Assembly: GCA_902781305.1 (NCBI GenBank)
Contig: CACZIV010000012.1
Coordinates: 1 to 38,839, forward strand
Source of the DNA: Pseudoselenomonas ruminantium
GTDB taxonomy: Bacteria > Bacillota > Negativicutes > Selenomonadales > Selenomonadaceae
Direction: 5' to 3'
DNA length: 38,839 nt
In this document: positions 3,579-38,839 of the stretch, in pieces
Layout: each line of letters begins with the position of its first letter
How positions within the stretch are numbered: position 1 is the stretch's first letter
Made by a program: the position numbers and the translations under genes
The notes under the pieces: model-generated
The model's input: the letters and a program-made list of their open reading frames with translations, nothing else
What the model was told of the DNA's origin: nothing
Database searches by the model: none

Positions 3579-5456
3579 TTAGAGAGTAGTTTTTAACACT
3601 GCGATTTCTGCATCCATGCGAATGCATCGCAGACGATACCAATTAACAATCTGGTCAAAGTTTTTCACAGATGTCATAGGTGTACCAGGCCACCTTAGAC
3701 ATTCATAGTCATAAGCCGATTTAGGAATATCCCCAATGTATTTACCAAACACATAGTACATATTGGACTCACTGAGCACGCTTTCTCGAAGCTCTTCATA
3801 CCTTGAAATTAAGTTTTCTCTAGCATATTGGTATATTATATGCATCAATCTATGTTGGTCGGCACCTTTTTTAAAGGTACTTCCTACTGTGTCGTCAGCA
3901 AATCCAAAACCTTCCCAACCAGGATTTCCATGCGTCAAATCCAGGTCATATGCTGCCATATACCACTTTATTCCATCCCACGTTTGTAAAAGATAGTTTT
4001 TCCCCCACCCGTCTGTATTTCCTATTGCCACGGTTAAGATATAATAATCAATAACACTATTAATATCAATGTAAGGACTAATTGAATCAATATATTCTTG
4101 GGCTGTCGAATGAGATTCCATAGCTGCAGAAATAGCTGCATTAATTGATTCCAATATTTTATCCTCTTTGAACGATTTTGAGTTATATTCTATTTCAAAA
4201 TCGATAAGACCGTTATCATCTTCTTGCATCGTGGCGAGTCCTTTAAAACGACTTGCATTGGTAGAACTGTAATCTGTACTTACAATACACTGTTTGGTAG
4301 AACCATCCATTCTTGCCATCCAATCGTCTTTTGGAATGGTAAAACAATACAGTCCCCAGTACTTATCATTTATAACCACTTGAATAGGAAAACCATCTAT
4401 AGCTCCATAATCCAGTCCGATTGATAGTTGTTTATCAGCGCATCCGATAAGTGTATCTCCGTTTGAATTAGATAGTAAGTCTCTATCACGGTCGATAATT
4501 TTATCCACACAAGCCTCAGATACTCTTGTTTTTCTGATACTGCCCCAAAGTCGGGCATTGCACACATTTCGTGATTGTGAAAAATCATTAAAATTCGACT
4601 TAATGACGTATTTCTTATGATGTCCCCAGCCATCAACTAATTGAATATTTTTATCAAATGTAAGCGTGTAATTTTTCTTGGGAAAATTTACTGATGAGGA
4701 CCCCTGCACCTTCATTTTTTCAAGCGTTCCTGCAATATTAAACTTTGGGAATGAATACGACACATCGGTCAATGTAACACCTTTCCCAGCATTTTCGTTT
4801 GTTAATTCATCAGTAACACCGTTCAAATATAAAACAGGAAACTCCCATTCTCTGTACTTTGTCTTTCCGACAGTATCCAAGAAAGTATTACCGACACGAA
4901 TTTTCAATTTACCTACTTCTGCAGCATCAGCAGGAACATCAGAAGCAGAAAGTGTTTTATCTGTGACAGGCAAATAAACGCCACCAACCAAATAATTATT
5001 TTCATTATTTGCTAGATGATTTTCAGACGAATCAACAAGATATACATCTTTCTTTTCCACGGCAGTCATGATATTACGCATATCTTTGGTCTGTTGCTGA
5101 TTTTCTTCATTAAGTCGCTCGATATCATCCTTTAGCTTAGAAATTCCTGACTTATCGTTTTTTAATCTATCTCCAACCGCCTTAGAATCTGCCGCAGCAC
5201 CACTAACTGTAAGTGTTGGGTCAACCCCTACATCAACAATTTTTGCGGCTGCTTCAGCAGACGTTGCAGCGGCGGCAGCTTGCGCGGCTGCCCTGTCAAC
5301 ATAAATCTGCCCTTCCCTATCAATTTGACTGATTGCATCTGCAGCTTTTGCCACGGCAGCTTCTGCATAAGCCGCATCATATTTATACGCCGCTGGAATG
5401 CCAATAGGAACGGCCCCCTGCGTCATTTCCTTTGCCAAAATTTCCTTCCTAATCAC
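3579..5456 (-). CDS. tail fibre with C-terminal CotH-type kinase domain
   Basis: A 625-residue chimera. Residues 1-75 are an Ala-rich tail attachment-like region, and residues 100-130 form a coiled coil. From about 180 to the end is a domain of the CotH family, atypical protein kinases first known from Bacillus spore coats. Visible family marks are FPKKNYTLTF at 258-267 (candidate ATP-binding lysines), the helical middle, GNTDGWGKNY at 479-488 (catalytic-loop-like Asp482, Asn487) and AAYDLDLTHG at 501-510 (metal-binding Asp504 and Asp506). All key positions seem kept, so activity is possible. The likely start is GTG at 5456 after GAGAGGTG, overlapping the previous stop by 8 bp; TTG at 5438 or ATG at 5426 are alternatives. 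Confidence 0.75.
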   Translation of the reverse strand: MIRKEILAKEMTQGAVPIGIPAAYKYDAAYAEAAVAKAADAISQIDREGQIYVDRAAAQAAAAATSAEAAAKIVDVGVDPTLTVSGAAADSKAVGDRLKNDKSGISKLKDDIERLNEENQQQTKDMRNIMTAVEKKDVYLVDSSENHLANNENNYLVGGVYLPVTDKTLSASDVPADAAEVGKLKIRVGNTFLDTVGKTKYREWEFPVLYLNGVTDELTNENAGKGVTLTDVSYSFPKFNIAGTLEKMKVQGSSSVNFPKKNYTLTFDKNIQLVDGWGHHKKYVIKSNFNDFSQSRNVCNARLWGSIRKTRVSEACVDKIIDRDRDLLSNSNGDTLIGCADKQLSIGLDYGAIDGFPIQVVINDKYWGLYCFTIPKDDWMARMDGSTKQCIVSTDYSSTNASRFKGLATMQEDDNGLIDFEIEYNSKSFKEDKILESINAAISAAMESHSTAQEYIDSISPYIDINSVIDYYILTVAIGNTDGWGKNYLLQTWDGIKWYMAAYDLDLTHGNPGWEGFGFADDTVGSTFKKGADQHRLMHIIYQYARENLISRYEELRESVLSESNMYYVFGKYIGDIPKSAYDYECLRWPGTPMTSVKNFDQIVNWYRLRCIRMDAEIAVLKTTL

Positions 5457-34604: not shown

Positions 34605-35366
34605 TCACCGCAAATGTTCCACTACCTCCGGGCACCATTGAATCTGATATCCGCTATGGCCGTTGCGGGTGTAGGGTATCGACTCCCCAAACTCTTTGCC
34701 CTTGGTGGTAAGCATCCAGCCTTTGCCGGATTTTTCTTGCAGACCTAAATCCATCAGCATAATATTGACGTCCTTTGCACGAATCCCGCCCAGCATCTCA
34801 CCAATAGCCGTCGGTGTCAGATAGCTGGGCTTTTCTTCACTTGGAAGAAGCTGCCGCAAAGGCTCCGGGTCAATGCCATAGGCACTCCCTACCATGGTCA
34901 TAGCCGCTGACCTAGCCATTCCCGGCTTTACCCCAAAGTACTGAGCGATAACATCCGCTGTTTCCGAAATATCCTTCACCGCGGTCTTAATCATGCGTGT
35001 ACGGTAATGGGGATTGGGCGAGAGCTTCGGCGTCTTCAGCTGCTTTTCCATGGCATTGAAGGCTTCGATGTACTTGATTTTCCATTCCAGTGCCTTTTTG
35101 CCAGTGAAGCCCATAACCAACAAGCTGAATCCGTCACGGTTCATTAGGTAGCAAGGATATTGCTTACCACGGTTCTCGTAGGTGATTTCGTGGAAGAATC
35201 TCGCTGCTGAATTTTCAGCAGCCAAAATTTCTCTTATAGTTGCTGTCACATTCCGATGTTCCTTTTCAAACACCTCTGCAACTCTGCGGCTATCCGTAAC
35301 TACCTGCTCATCATTAACTTGTACTAACTCATCAAGATTGCTATTTGCTACTGTCATAACTTTCAT
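34605..35366 (-). CDS. Rha-family antirepressor/regulator
   Basis: A 253-residue phage regulator. Residues 10-110 are the Rha domain: VVTDSRRVAEVFEKEHRNVTATIRE, then FFHEITYENRGKQYPCYLMNRDGFSLLVMGFTGKKALEWKIKYIEAFN. The C-terminal part (about 175-253) is a second conserved region (YLTPTAIGEMLGGIRAKDVNIMLMDLGLQ...) of ANT/KilAC-like type. Such proteins antagonise or tune phage repression. It lies right after the Cro-like gene and has a doubled operator-like TTAAGTTAAGTT just upstream (35387-35401). Confidence 0.85.
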   Translation of the reverse strand: MKVMTVANSNLDELVQVNDEQVVTDSRRVAEVFEKEHRNVTATIREILAAENSAARFFHEITYENRGKQYPCYLMNRDGFSLLVMGFTGKKALEWKIKYIEAFNAMEKQLKTPKLSPNPHYRTRMIKTAVKDISETADVIAQYFGVKPGMARSAAMTMVGSAYGIDPEPLRQLLPSEEKPSYLTPTAIGEMLGGIRAKDVNIMLMDLGLQEKSGKGWMLTTKGKEFGESIPYTRNGHSGYQIQWCPEVVEHLR

Positions 35367-35386
35367 TTGTTAAACCTCACTTTCCA

Positions 35387-35401
35387 TTTAAGTTAAGTTA
35401 G
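35387..35401. promoter_or_regulatory. operator copy ahead of the Rha gene
   Basis: TTTAAGTTAAGTTAG contains AGTTAAGT, the motif repeated in the main switch, in doubled form. It overlaps the 3' end of the Cro-like gene and lies 20 bp upstream of the Rha start, so the repressor or Cro could also control Rha. Confidence 0.5.
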
Positions 35402-35607
35402 TTCGCAAAAAAAATTTGCTTTATTTCGGTGTCGGTTAATCCCATATTTTTTCTGAGTGTGTCTACCTCGGCTAGAGAAAACTTTCCCGCACCAGTTTCC
35501 TTACGGCTGTAAACACCAGGGACGATTCCTAACATATCTGCTATATCTGCTTGACGTAGGTTTCTCCTGTTTCTCGCCGCTTTCATCTCATAACGATTAT
35601 AAGCCAT
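35398..35607 (-). CDS. Cro-like XRE-family regulator
   Basis: A 69-residue helix-turn-helix protein: RNRRNLRQADIADMLGI (turn), then VYSRKETGAGKFSLAEVDTL, almost the whole length of an XRE domain. It is the first gene of the leftward early operon, divergent from the repressor, the Cro position. The ATG at 35607 follows AAGGAGGTGAGTTGC; the GTG at 35616 lies within that site. Confidence 0.85.
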   Translation of the reverse strand: MAYNRYEMKAARNRRNLRQADIADMLGIVPGVYSRKETGAGKFSLAEVDTLRKNMGLTDTEIKQIFFAN

Positions 35608-35652
35608 GCAACTCACCTCCTTATCGTTTCGGTTAAGTTATCTCATGAGGCT

Positions 35653-35771: not shown

Positions 35772-36176
35772 ATGATTAAACTTAAAGAGCTCCGAAAAAA
35801 CAAGCAACTTACCCAAGAAGAACTGATAAGCCAATTCAATATTAGATATGGTCGTAAGTATACAGCTGCAGCTATTTCTCAATTTGAAAATGGAAAACGT
35901 ATTCCTGAGACTCAAGCCCTTATGGACTTTGCCGACTTCTTCAACGTCTCAGTAGACTACCTCCTCGGCCGCACCGACGAGCCGCAGGGCACAGGCTTCC
36001 AGAAGGGCCTGCTGGGGGACACTACTCAAGATAGTCATATCGTAATGACCAGTAATACATTAGGAGATTCCGACACGGACGATATTCAGCGACGCTATTC
36101 TCAACTGGATGAGGCTGGAAAAGCTGCTGTCAAAAATTTAATGAGCATTTTTGAAAATGCCAAGAAAACAAATTAA
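35772..36176 (+). CDS. CI-type repressor, XRE family, no protease domain
   Basis: A 134-residue regulator. Residues 4-65 are an XRE helix-turn-helix (LRKNKQLTQEELISQFN...AAAISQFENGKRIPETQALMDFADFFNVSVDYLLG). The rest is short and helical (RRYSQLDEAGKAAVKNLMSIF), probably for dimerisation. There is no S24 peptidase domain, so the usual RecA-driven self-cleavage is not expected and induction may use the Rha protein or another antirepressor. It follows GGGAGGG at good spacing and heads the rightward operon. Confidence 0.9.
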   Translation: MIKLKELRKNKQLTQEELISQFNIRYGRKYTAAAISQFENGKRIPETQALMDFADFFNVSVDYLLGRTDEPQGTGFQKGLLGDTTQDSHIVMTSNTLGDSDTDDIQRRYSQLDEAGKAAVKNLMSIFENAKKTN

Positions 36177-36190
36177 AAGGAAGATACATC

Positions 36191-37045
36191 ATGGAAGATT
36201 TTACAGAGGTAGACATACTTGATTCGCTTCAACTGAATACTCTACTTTTAACAGAAATCAGCGAAGCTGAAACGCCCAAGCAAGGAACAGGCTTCTTTTT
36301 TATGTATCGTGATGATGATAATCCTGAGATTGGTTATCCGGTCATTGTCAGTAACCGCCATGTCCTTGAAGGAATGGACATGCTCCGTTTTTCTTGGACG
36401 ACCACTGACAAAGATGGACACCCACAACTTGGGAAGATGGCACATCAAATTTTTATGAATGTTCATGACTACTTATTGATACATCCAACAGAAGATTTAG
36501 CTATTTTATCCATTGGTTCTATCATTAATCAGATAGGCGGTATGGTAGCCATGCGAGCTTGGGATGAGAATCACATCCTATCAAAGAAACATCTTAATAC
36601 AATCAACGTGGCTCATCGGATTCTCATGATTGGGTATCCATTGAATATTATGGATAGAAAAAACTATGTACCAATATTTCGGCAGGGAATCACAGCTACC
36701 AATCCCGCCTTGGATTTCAATGGCCGACAAGAATTTGCTATAGATATCGCTTGTTTTCCTGGCTCAAGTGGCTCTCCCATATTCGCCTATGATGACGGAT
36801 TAATTGATGTTGACGAAAATAGAAATCAAATTTATGGCAAATCTATTGCCTTTATTGGTATTCAGCGTTCGACTTACACGCATACTACAAAAGGTGAAAT
36901 AGAACTACTTGATAAGCAAGTTTGGCCAATTACAGTACAGGAGTCAGCACATTTAGGTATGGCTATAAATGCTCGTGCATTAAAAGACTTAAAACCGGCT
37001 TTAATAAAATTGGTACGAAACATAGAAAAGGAGAAAACAGTATAA
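36191..37045 (+). CDS. trypsin-like serine protease (prophage cargo)
   Basis: A 284-residue trypsin-fold protease. The catalytic triad is readable as His57 (VSNRHVLEG), Asp102 (HPTEDLAILS) and Ser193 (CFPGSSGSPIF), in normal order and context. There is no signal peptide or membrane helix, so it should act in the cytoplasm, unlike secreted trypsins. Residues 1-30 and the last 70 do not match the family. It lies 14 bp past the repressor and overlaps the next start as TAATG, so the two are coupled. Cytoplasmic trypsin-like proteases occur as sensors or activators in some anti-phage systems; that role is inferred here from position. Confidence 0.85.
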   Translation: MEDFTEVDILDSLQLNTLLLTEISEAETPKQGTGFFFMYRDDDNPEIGYPVIVSNRHVLEGMDMLRFSWTTTDKDGHPQLGKMAHQIFMNVHDYLLIHPTEDLAILSIGSIINQIGGMVAMRAWDENHILSKKHLNTINVAHRILMIGYPLNIMDRKNYVPIFRQGITATNPALDFNGRQEFAIDIACFPGSSGSPIFAYDDGLIDVDENRNQIYGKSIAFIGIQRSTYTHTTKGEIELLDKQVWPITVQESAHLGMAINARALKDLKPALIKLVRNIEKEKTV

Positions 37046-38010
37046 TGGGTACGAAGAAAATTAAATTTAACTATTTCAGACCTTGTTTAAGCAATAATCC
37101 CGAAGAAAGTGTAGATTTATCACCTTACTTCGAAAAGCTATCATCTATGCAAAACCTATATGAATTAGAAATTGAATCTAACAATTCATCAGTGTTAACC
37201 CCCACTTTCCTAAAGAAAGAAAACAACTACACAATCAACTCTGGTGCTACACTTCAGTATCCCCTGTGGCGTTTTGACTTAAGCAAATATCGTTTGGACT
37301 TACCATCTGTTTATGACAAAAGACAAAGAAAACTTACAAAGTTTGAATTATCAAGAGATAAATTTATATCAGAAGAAACGGTATGCCTTTATGATAATGA
37401 CTTAAATATAGTAGTTATACAATCAAATCAGAATGGGCCATCAGCTATTCAAGTGCAGGGTTTTATCAACAATTTCATCGATGATGACATCAATAAAGTT
37501 GTATTTGTTCCTTTAATATATAAGCAGGCATTTGAACGTTCTTTAAGACAAAGCAAAAGCCACAGTATACATGTTAGATTAATTAATACGGGAACCGAAG
37601 AATTTAAAAATTATACCAGCAATACCGAAGACGAAACTGTACGTCATGCAGCAGAAATGGCATCAACTTTACGAGGAGACGAGGAATACGATGTAAAACT
37701 AGACTTTACTATATCTATAAACGAACGCAAACCAAAACAAGGATTTATAAAAGAAAAAATAACCAGCGCTATATCATCATTCTTCCCTATGATTGATTTG
37801 AACATGGTTGACCAGTTTTCAGTAAAAGGTTATAATGAAAACGAAACGAAAATTTCAACTATTAATTTGATTAAAGATGTTATATTTGATGAATGTAATT
37901 TTAATTTTGACGAAGAGCATCGAACTATTCCAACCATAAGTATTTTCAATCAAATCGCTATTTTGTATAATTGCAGAAGGGGAAATTTGATTATCGATAA
38001 CAAAGGATAG
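37045..38010 (+). CDS. unrecognised cytosolic protein in the cargo operon (RexA position)
   Basis: A 321-residue soluble protein with no signal peptide or membrane helix and no family I recognise. It opens GTKKIKFNYFRPCLSNN, has a charged centre (KRQRKLTKFELSRDKFISEE), a strand-rich part (VVIQSNQNGPSAIQVQGF) and a Lys/Glu-rich segment (ERKPKQGFIKEKITS) before the C-terminus. Coupled to the protease by TAATG; an upstream in-frame start at 36922 would lie inside the protease gene. It is AT-rich unlike the phage core. Repressor, soluble protein, then a four-helix membrane protein is the order of lambda cI-rexA-rexB; I see no sequence similarity to RexA itself. Confidence 0.75.
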   Translation: MGTKKIKFNYFRPCLSNNPEESVDLSPYFEKLSSMQNLYELEIESNNSSVLTPTFLKKENNYTINSGATLQYPLWRFDLSKYRLDLPSVYDKRQRKLTKFELSRDKFISEETVCLYDNDLNIVVIQSNQNGPSAIQVQGFINNFIDDDINKVVFVPLIYKQAFERSLRQSKSHSIHVRLINTGTEEFKNYTSNTEDETVRHAAEMASTLRGDEEYDVKLDFTISINERKPKQGFIKEKITSAISSFFPMIDLNMVDQFSVKGYNENETKISTINLIKDVIFDECNFNFDEEHRTIPTISIFNQIAILYNCRRGNLIIDNKG

Positions 38011-38019
38011 TGTTTAAAT

Positions 38020-38526
38020 ATGCGTAGATGGTTTGAACGTTTATATCCATTGATAACGTCTATATGTATCTTAATTGGATATATTTTTTTCCTAGAGGAT
38101 TGCCACGCCAGTTCTTTATCAAGCAACAGTAATAATATCATAACAATAACAATAACATTAGCTAGTATTTTTCTAGGGTTCATAGGTGTAATGCTTGGCG
38201 CTATTATATCTATAAGGTTTACTTCTATGATGGATGTTTTAGTGCAACGAAATGCTATATTAGATTTAATATCATACGTTAAACATTCCTTTGCTTCTGA
38301 ATGTATATCTTTAGCAATAGCGGTAGGCACATTATTAATTAACACACCTAATGCCCCACTCCCTCAATGGGAAATATACTTACTTATCTTCTGTATATCT
38401 TATATGATATTATCAACCATAAGAATCATATTAATACTGTTTGCTTTGACTAACGTCCCAAACGATACATATCATGGAAGCAAAAATCTAGCCGGAAAGA
38501 AGCCGCAAGTTCCCAAGAATTTATAA
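38020..38526 (+). CDS. four-helix membrane protein in the cargo operon (RexB position)
   Basis: A 168-residue membrane protein with about four helices (near residues 8-25, 38-64, 92-108 and 116-142), a basic segment between helices 2 and 3 (IRFTSMMDVLVQRN) and a basic C-terminal tail. Size and helix number resemble lambda RexB (144 residues, four helices), the pore-forming partner of RexA, but this is similarity of shape only. It lies 9 bp after the previous stop with AAGGAT upstream. A pore or channel that depolarises the cell on superinfection would be the Rex-like prediction. Confidence 0.75.
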   Translation: MRRWFERLYPLITSICILIGYIFFLEDCHASSLSSNSNNIITITITLASIFLGFIGVMLGAIISIRFTSMMDVLVQRNAILDLISYVKHSFASECISLAIAVGTLLINTPNAPLPQWEIYLLIFCISYMILSTIRIILILFALTNVPNDTYHGSKNLAGKKPQVPKNL

Positions 38527-38539
38527 GTATTTATTAGCT

Positions 38540-38766
38540 ATACATGAAAGGGAATTACCAGATGAATATATAATAATTTACAACACCGACGATGGCCAAG
38601 CCAACGTCAAGCTGTACACCAATGATAGTACGGTCTGGGCCACACAAAAGCGATGGCAGAGATTTGCTGTTAAGCCCCTGCCATCAACAAAAACACAGGA
38701 AAAGGGACTGCTGCACGTTCACATTACGTGTGAACTGCTTCCCGTCAAGAGGACAATAAAAAAATA
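38540..38766 (+). pseudogene. decayed RhuM-family gene fragment
   Basis: The frame has a recognisable N-terminus, PDEYIIIYNTDDGQANVKLY then STVWATQ, typical of RhuM-type proteins (the virulence protein RhuM family). The expected next words appear in other frames: TQ.AMAEI one base off, then PAINKN further on. At least two frameshifts and no good start (ATA at 38540 or a short ATG frame at 38562 that stops at once) show it is a remnant. The protein text runs into the terminator at 38779. Confidence 0.6.
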
Positions 38767-38778
38767 TAAGATTTCTTT

Positions 38779-38808
38779 GGTCGACAGATTTGTCTGTCGG
38801 CCTTTTTT
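38779..38808 (+). terminator. terminator closing the rightward operon
   Basis: Arms 38779-38788 and 38793-38802 pair over 10 bp (one G-T) with a TTTG loop, and TTTTTT follows on the plus strand. It ends the repressor-cargo transcript. The last 31 bases of the window show no feature. Confidence 0.85.
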
Positions 38809-38839
38809 ATGCGGCTAAATACAAGGTGTGTTTCTCTAT

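Follow-up and report, generated by a model that had tools for sequence, protein, structure and literature searches.

The DNA analyzed here, referred to as the window (38,839 nt, Pseudoselenomonas ruminantium), is an entire contig of a 2.79-Mb genome in 121 contigs. Ten large ORFs of its minus strand were compared with PHROGs; nine were matched and one had no match, and the names obtained included terminase large subunit, portal, head maturation protease, major head protein, tape measure, tail fibre J, primase, helicase and a Sak4-like protein. An amidase was also present in the window (Pfam, PHROGs) and, because of this gene and the structural and replication matches, the window was considered to be a near-complete prophage. 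A 625-aa protein with a CotH-kinase domain (3579–5456, minus strand; Pfam 5.1e-21) was also found among the prophage late genes.

The left side of the immunity region is formed by a gene for a Rha-type antirepressor (34605–35366, minus strand; Pfam Phage_pRha 4.5e-29, phrog_518), and the ORF list contained a small divergent gene of 72 aa (35398–35616, minus strand), with a Cro-like helix-turn-helix recognized by eye. The repressor (134 aa; 35772–36176, plus strand) matched only helix-turn-helix models of Pfam (HTH_3 2.1e-8, HTH_19 2.6e-8), and no autocleavage domain was found in it with Pfam. Three plus-strand genes follow the repressor, at the right end of the window, and encode a trypsin-like serine protease of 284 aa (36191–37045), a protein of 321 aa (37045–38010) and a membrane protein of 168 aa (38020–38526). 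The layout that a previous sequence-only reading had described for these genes, with regard to coordinates, spacing and low GC content, was confirmed with the ORFs and the sequence. The protease gene starts 14 nt after the repressor gene, its stop codon shares one base with the start of the next gene (TAATG) and the membrane protein gene follows after 9 nt. The GC content was 39.5% in positions 36001–37000 and 31.3% in 37001–38000, compared with 36.4–53.6% in the other 36 one-kb intervals. A terminator consensus scan yielded three sites (shuffle mean 1.9), the strongest being a hairpin with a 10-pair stem followed by TTTTTT, located 3' of the trio (38779–38802, plus strand), which is possibly the end of the operon; the remaining two were a 5-pair site within the protease gene and another on the opposite strand. 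Promoter-like sites were no more numerous than expected by chance (13 against a mean of 14.0), so that it is the layout only that points to a co-transcription of the trio with the repressor. An open frame (38525–38812, plus strand) begins where the membrane protein gene ends, extends into the terminator and is possibly a gene remnant; a likeness to RhuM was discarded, as Pfam gave no match at E≤10.

The protease matched the PADLOC model PDC-S45 (2.4e-71, residues 7–275), phrog_7688 (2.1e-49) and Pfam Trypsin_2 (1.4e-7). The catalytic triad previously proposed for it was conserved in the aligned family: H57 and D102 were present in 93/93 sequences and S193 in 92/93, with one gap, the constancy of H57 being partly built in because this residue lay within the pattern used to search for relatives. 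One hydrophobic stretch was obtained with a crude hydropathy count, and the enzyme is likely cytosolic. Relatives came from varied bacterial groups in the genome scan (the best 80 of 183 were taken), from the viral scan (10) and from a plasmid search (13 records), and the gene was present in 5 of 150 genomes of host relatives, its own included. The family profile gave no match at 0.001 among the sequences of solved structures. Two of these relatives deserve mention on their own. The record of an Exiguobacterium plasmid was matched in two places, and two annotated serine protease genes are adjacent at the PDC-S45 match (L028:4965–6668). A relative with a longer N-terminus lies near type I restriction-like genes (L015:5873–10673, minus strand), and two proteins near it are, we presume, caspase-like.

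The surroundings of this family were analyzed in 83 proteases, which were those of the 90 scan loci that passed an ORF and motif rule (seven failed). Close neighbors, defined as ORFs of at least 60 aa on the same strand within 100 nt, were found downstream in 27 cases and upstream in 35; all of the downstream ones and 34 of the upstream ones were scanned, L115 being left out since it is the same contig as L055. The Pfam families of these neighbors were scattered, none occurring in more than two among the matches listed, and included the defence families AbiGi, AbiJ, type I specificity, Mrr, nSTAND and Fic. In the literature, the accessible text of one article reports a PADLOC match to PDC-S45 in a Sinorhizobium prophage (PMC12429752). 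The genomic context of the PDC-S45 relatives was mostly stand-alone and PDC-S45 is the label of a single-gene candidate; most likely, the protease is an independent exclusion gene, a defence of its own.

The second gene had been read as unrecognized, and this did not hold. Its 321-aa product belongs to Pfam DUF6731 (PF20505; E 6e-21, 75.7 bits against a cut-off of 27, residues 1–308), a family of unknown function, and also matched phrog_10865 (8.1e-25). DUF6731 was not mentioned by name in the open-access literature searched. Relatives were found only by using alignments and by querying with L011, a distant relative: the trio proteins P0001 and P0002 and the L011 protein, each scanned singly, yielded none, and tblastn likewise found none for P0002 in phages and plasmids or for P0003 in phages. 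The DUF6731 profile gave only a weak, unrelated match among solved-structure sequences (0.035).

A kinship of this protein with RexA of phage lambda was supported by two computations, the predicted fold and a profile alignment. In a Foldseek search of 350,542 chains with the AlphaFold model, which is of moderate confidence (pLDDT 72, pTM 0.70), E≤0.001 was reached by a single solved fold, lambda RexA, through two chains of one entry (8twq_B, 3.6e-5; 8twq_A, 3.9e-5). The next ranks were RdgC and CENP-N, both of which are named as RexA relatives in the accessible part of the RexA paper (PMC11077077). Global superposition of the model on RexA was poor (TM 0.34/0.39, rmsd 18.6). With hhalign, an alignment of 13 DUF6731 sequences scored 42.3 (probability 74%) against four RexA sequences, one of 15 sequences scored 46.9 (85.7%), and the score was 42.6 after removal of the window protein. 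The controls were clearly lower: 200 column shuffles, which keep the depth of the profile, reached at most 23.5, the reversed alignment 13.1 and 250 unrelated ORFs at most 25.5, these last being single sequences and hence weaker rivals than profiles. Lambda RexA alone scored 23.5 against the DUF6731 profile (best unrelated ORF, 21.5). Identity was about 12% in the aligned part. No match to RexA was obtained with a smaller DUF6731 alignment (A6, 16.2) or with 15 single DUF6731 sequences, whose scores (11.9–18.8) fell inside the range of the unrelated ORFs, and the Pfam RexA model did not match the window protein at E≤1. At the level of sequence, the relationship is likely to be one of remote homology.

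The same hydropathy count gave four hydrophobic stretches in the third gene product, and its model (pLDDT 78.1) shows four long helices, both in agreement with the four-helix membrane protein predicted earlier. It matched phrog_17119 (4.2e-4), as did the corresponding partners in L010 (1.2e-9) and L011 (7e-7). When 28 other DUF6731 loci were inspected, the gene directly behind DUF6731 in 27 of them was a same-strand ORF with three to five hydrophobic stretches. In the remaining locus (L010:5559–6490, minus strand) the DUF6731 gene is split in two (155 and 112 aa), and the membrane protein gene behind the second ORF is intact. These loci correspond to 15 distinct proteins, distinctness being judged by the last 150 residues; several of the repeats are contigs that entered the set twice, and L167 and L170 are as long as phage AP45. 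Loci L162–L185 came from the scans with alignments. The tblastn search with the L011 query located DUF6731 in Pseudomonas phage AUS531phi, where a divergent antirepressor, CI, DUF6731 and a small membrane protein gene succeed each other and the pair thus stands directly behind CI, and in Aeribacillus phage AP45, where the pair lies just before the terminase genes. The exclusion genes of phage Fc02 were considered as counterparts of the AUS531phi pair and rejected, since olg1/olg2 are described in the accessible text as upstream of the repressor and encoding proteins of 7.9 and 20.7 kDa (PMC9936078).

Among viral proteins, the membrane protein model and the DUF6731 model both had their best match in phage ctylc9; the third match of the membrane protein model was a 165-aa protein of Mycobacterium phage Sbash (E 0.31), presumably gp31, which is also of 165 aa. 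The membrane protein gave no Pfam RexB match and scored only 12.4 and 15.3 against RexB with hhalign, no profile match to Sbash gp31 was found, and its family profile matched solved-structure sequences only at 0.5 or above. For the AUS531phi partner, the alignment with RexB covered 29 columns and scored 21.6, compared with 19.6 for the highest-scoring of 22 control membrane ORFs. The likeness to a Rex pair in order and size, as the sequence-only reading had put it, is now backed by the predicted RexA fold, the profile alignment, the adjacent membrane protein gene in 27/28 loci and the position behind CI in AUS531phi, an unrelated phage.

The stretch behind the repressor was then compared with related loci. 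To the right of position 35385, the DNA of the window matched L013 and L014 over only 77–79 nt, inside the repressor gene (blastn), and 77 nt of this gene (35943–36019, plus strand) were 100% identical to L014. The closest relative of the repressor, in L152, shows 88% identity over residues 1–86, and the DNA match to this locus ends at 36008, again inside the repressor gene. Because the DNA matches stop within the repressor gene, the repressor tails and the genes behind them appear to have been exchanged together, with two modules in one slot in the window. Other occupants were found in the same place. In L014, and in a viral contig with the same arrangement (L120), the protease is followed by a soluble/membrane pair of 318/211 aa without a family match. 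In L013 (3384–6562, minus strand) the PDC-S45 protease lies between the repressor and an AAA ATPase of 634 aa whose start matches IF2_N; among L012–L015, an ATPase of this kind follows the protease only in this locus. A Peptidase_M78 gene (ImmA/IrrE-type) starts 2 nt behind the repressor in L152 (2667–3910) and 4 nt behind a related repressor in L159 (2392–3256). In L157 (2871–5662, minus strand) SLATT, ThsB-type TIR and Fic genes, possibly a defence set, come after an ORF that overlaps the repressor match in another frame. The other repressor relatives had yet other contexts, and L153–L155 were not obviously prophage. In this genus, the region behind the repressor looks like a site where exclusion genes are swapped.

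A second type of soluble plus four-helix pair, without a family match, was observed in L014 (10303–11891) and L189 (2964–5640, minus strand); the latter has no protease in the 10 kb read, and a gene for an NA37 nucleoid-associated protein follows. The 318-aa protein of L014 was tried as kin of DUF6731 or RexA and rejected (scores 14.5, 11.5 and 19.5).

The three genes had been proposed to form one system, and the survey of loci did not support this. The 94 protease loci, of which the two scans supplied 90 and the same genus or family four, contained no DUF6731, membrane-partner or RexA match, and no protease occurred in the 28 DUF6731 loci; these counts hold within the span of the loci, which reach up to 6 kb on each side. 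In the loci examined, co-occurrence was thus found for the DUF6731 and membrane protein genes and not for the three genes together, an absence that the sequence-only reading had itself named as grounds for refuting its proposal.

A broader role of the protease was also weighed, in which PDC-S45 would be a general switch behind the repressors of this genus, placed in the slot that belongs to ImmA-type metallopeptidases in sister prophages, coupled to interchangeable effectors such as a RexAB-like pair, a different soluble and membrane pair or an AAA ATPase, and cleaving either the effector or the repressor; this we consider rather unlikely. The alternative in which the three genes of the window are one system and the protease cleaves or activates the RexA-like or the membrane protein upon infection is judged improbable. 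The base shared by the protease and DUF6731 genes is in line with it, and so is the fact that the protease is directly behind the repressor in the window, L014 and L013 and leads each time to a close same-strand gene. There is also a precedent in bacterial immunity, where systems such as LypABC use trypsin-like proteases as switches, according to the available portion of the paper concerned (PMC13236601). Nevertheless, those three cases come from phage operons, whose genes usually lie close together, and prove little; L012 has no close same-strand gene after the protease, only 27 of the 83 proteases have one within 100 nt, and the co-occurrence counts of zero speak against it. No domain of an NLR-like or other ATPase partner, as in the CARD-NLR-type protease-ATPase systems, was found with Pfam in the three window proteins.

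The protease could instead be an anti-repressor that cuts the preceding repressor in the way that ImmA cuts ImmR and induces the prophage, with no part in exclusion. The Peptidase_M78 genes that occupy the slot in L152 and L159 argue for this function, as does the repressor itself, which in its length and in having an HTH match only resembles the 127-residue ImmR cut by ImmA (accessible text of PMC8960796). The short repressor followed directly by a protease is in fact the arrangement of ImmR-ImmA in ICEBs1; ImmA, however, is a metallopeptidase, whereas the window gene behind the repressor encodes a serine protease, with a Trypsin_2 match and no M78 domain in Pfam. Moreover, the family is mostly found away from repressors (no helix-turn-helix family appeared for the 34 close upstream neighbors among the 25 of 48 Pfam matches listed), many of the protease neighbors are defence genes, and the prophage already has a Rha-type antirepressor. 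This function is regarded as quite unlikely.

As for the other two genes, the DUF6731 pair might serve not exclusion but the life cycle of the phage itself, in recombination or in the lytic switch; RdgC-like proteins, for comparison, are DNA-binding. The rank of the RdgC folds directly after RexA and the place of the AP45 pair before the terminase genes would fit such a role, and RexA on its own, in the absence of RexB, is able to tilt the lambda switch to the lytic side, according to the text available (PMC11077077). The constancy of the membrane partner is an argument against it, and so are the weak match of the DUF6731 protein to the defence candidate PDC-M67A (PADLOC, 3.1e-6) and the patchy occurrence expected of cargo: DUF6731 is rare, with 3 of 299 genomes of the phylum and the own genome alone among 250 of the class. 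A further search in the classes of two other carriers, G177 (2/59 genomes) and G209 (1/13), gave a sole new match, below the family cut-off. This alternative is regarded as unlikely.

The pair was compared with the systems already described. Like lambda RexA-RexB, it stands behind a repressor, consists of a soluble and then a four-helix membrane protein of similar sizes (279 and 144 aa in lambda) and has a soluble protein that matches RexA by predicted fold and profile; unlike it, there are no Pfam RexA or RexB matches, no profile match between the membrane protein and RexB, and an extra protease gene in front. RexABpp (PP_5643–5644) of the Pseudomonas putida prophage P1 is a close parallel in the portion of its description available: RexA was recognized there by HHpred and AlphaFold only, the four-helix partner has no detectable homologue and the pair lies downstream of a CI-like repressor (PMC12894663). 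It differs in that two genes separate the repressor from the pair and in that its protection was shown by experiment, whereas the role of the window pair is a predicted one. Sbash gp30-gp31 and CarolAnn gp44-gp43 are also soluble plus four-helix membrane pairs made by a prophage, the latter co-transcribed with the repressor according to the accessible text (PMC6426606); Sbash gp30 showed no profile match with DUF6731 (11.7). Among the candidate labels, PDC-S45 fits the window protease, as stated above, and PDC-M67 fits the pair in the DUF6731 protein, unlike in the membrane protein, which had no PADLOC match at E≤1, PDC-M67B included; one partner elsewhere matched PDC-M67B weakly (0.026).

Taken together, the second and third genes are probably a divergent exclusion pair of the RexAB type, stacked with an independent PDC-S45 protease in one cargo slot. 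Judging from the layout, repressor and pair are probably produced together in the lysogen. On the model of lambda and RexABpp, the RexA-like DUF6731 protein would be a sensor for DNA or DNA-protein intermediates from an infecting phage and would trigger the four-helix membrane protein as effector. The order of sensor, membrane partner and arrest is supported for lambda and P. putida in the part of the RexABpp paper available (PMC12894663). In the window, the damaged membrane would then stop growth and the infection would be aborted. The protease would be a separate PDC-S45 member that shares the slot and remains outside the pair.

To our knowledge, the trigger of RexAB is still unsettled 70 years after the system became known. 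Only five RexAB-like systems had been described, according to the count in the accessible text of a 2026 paper (PMC12894663). The 15 distinct DUF6731 proteins come from bacterial genomes, viral contigs and the Pseudomonas and Aeribacillus phages and, if they are RexA relatives, they would offer many divergent pairs whose common sensor surface and membrane partner could be put to the test. A DUF6731 soluble protein that looks like a very distant relative of RexA, together with its four-helix partner, suggests that RexAB exclusion is part of a wider family in phages.
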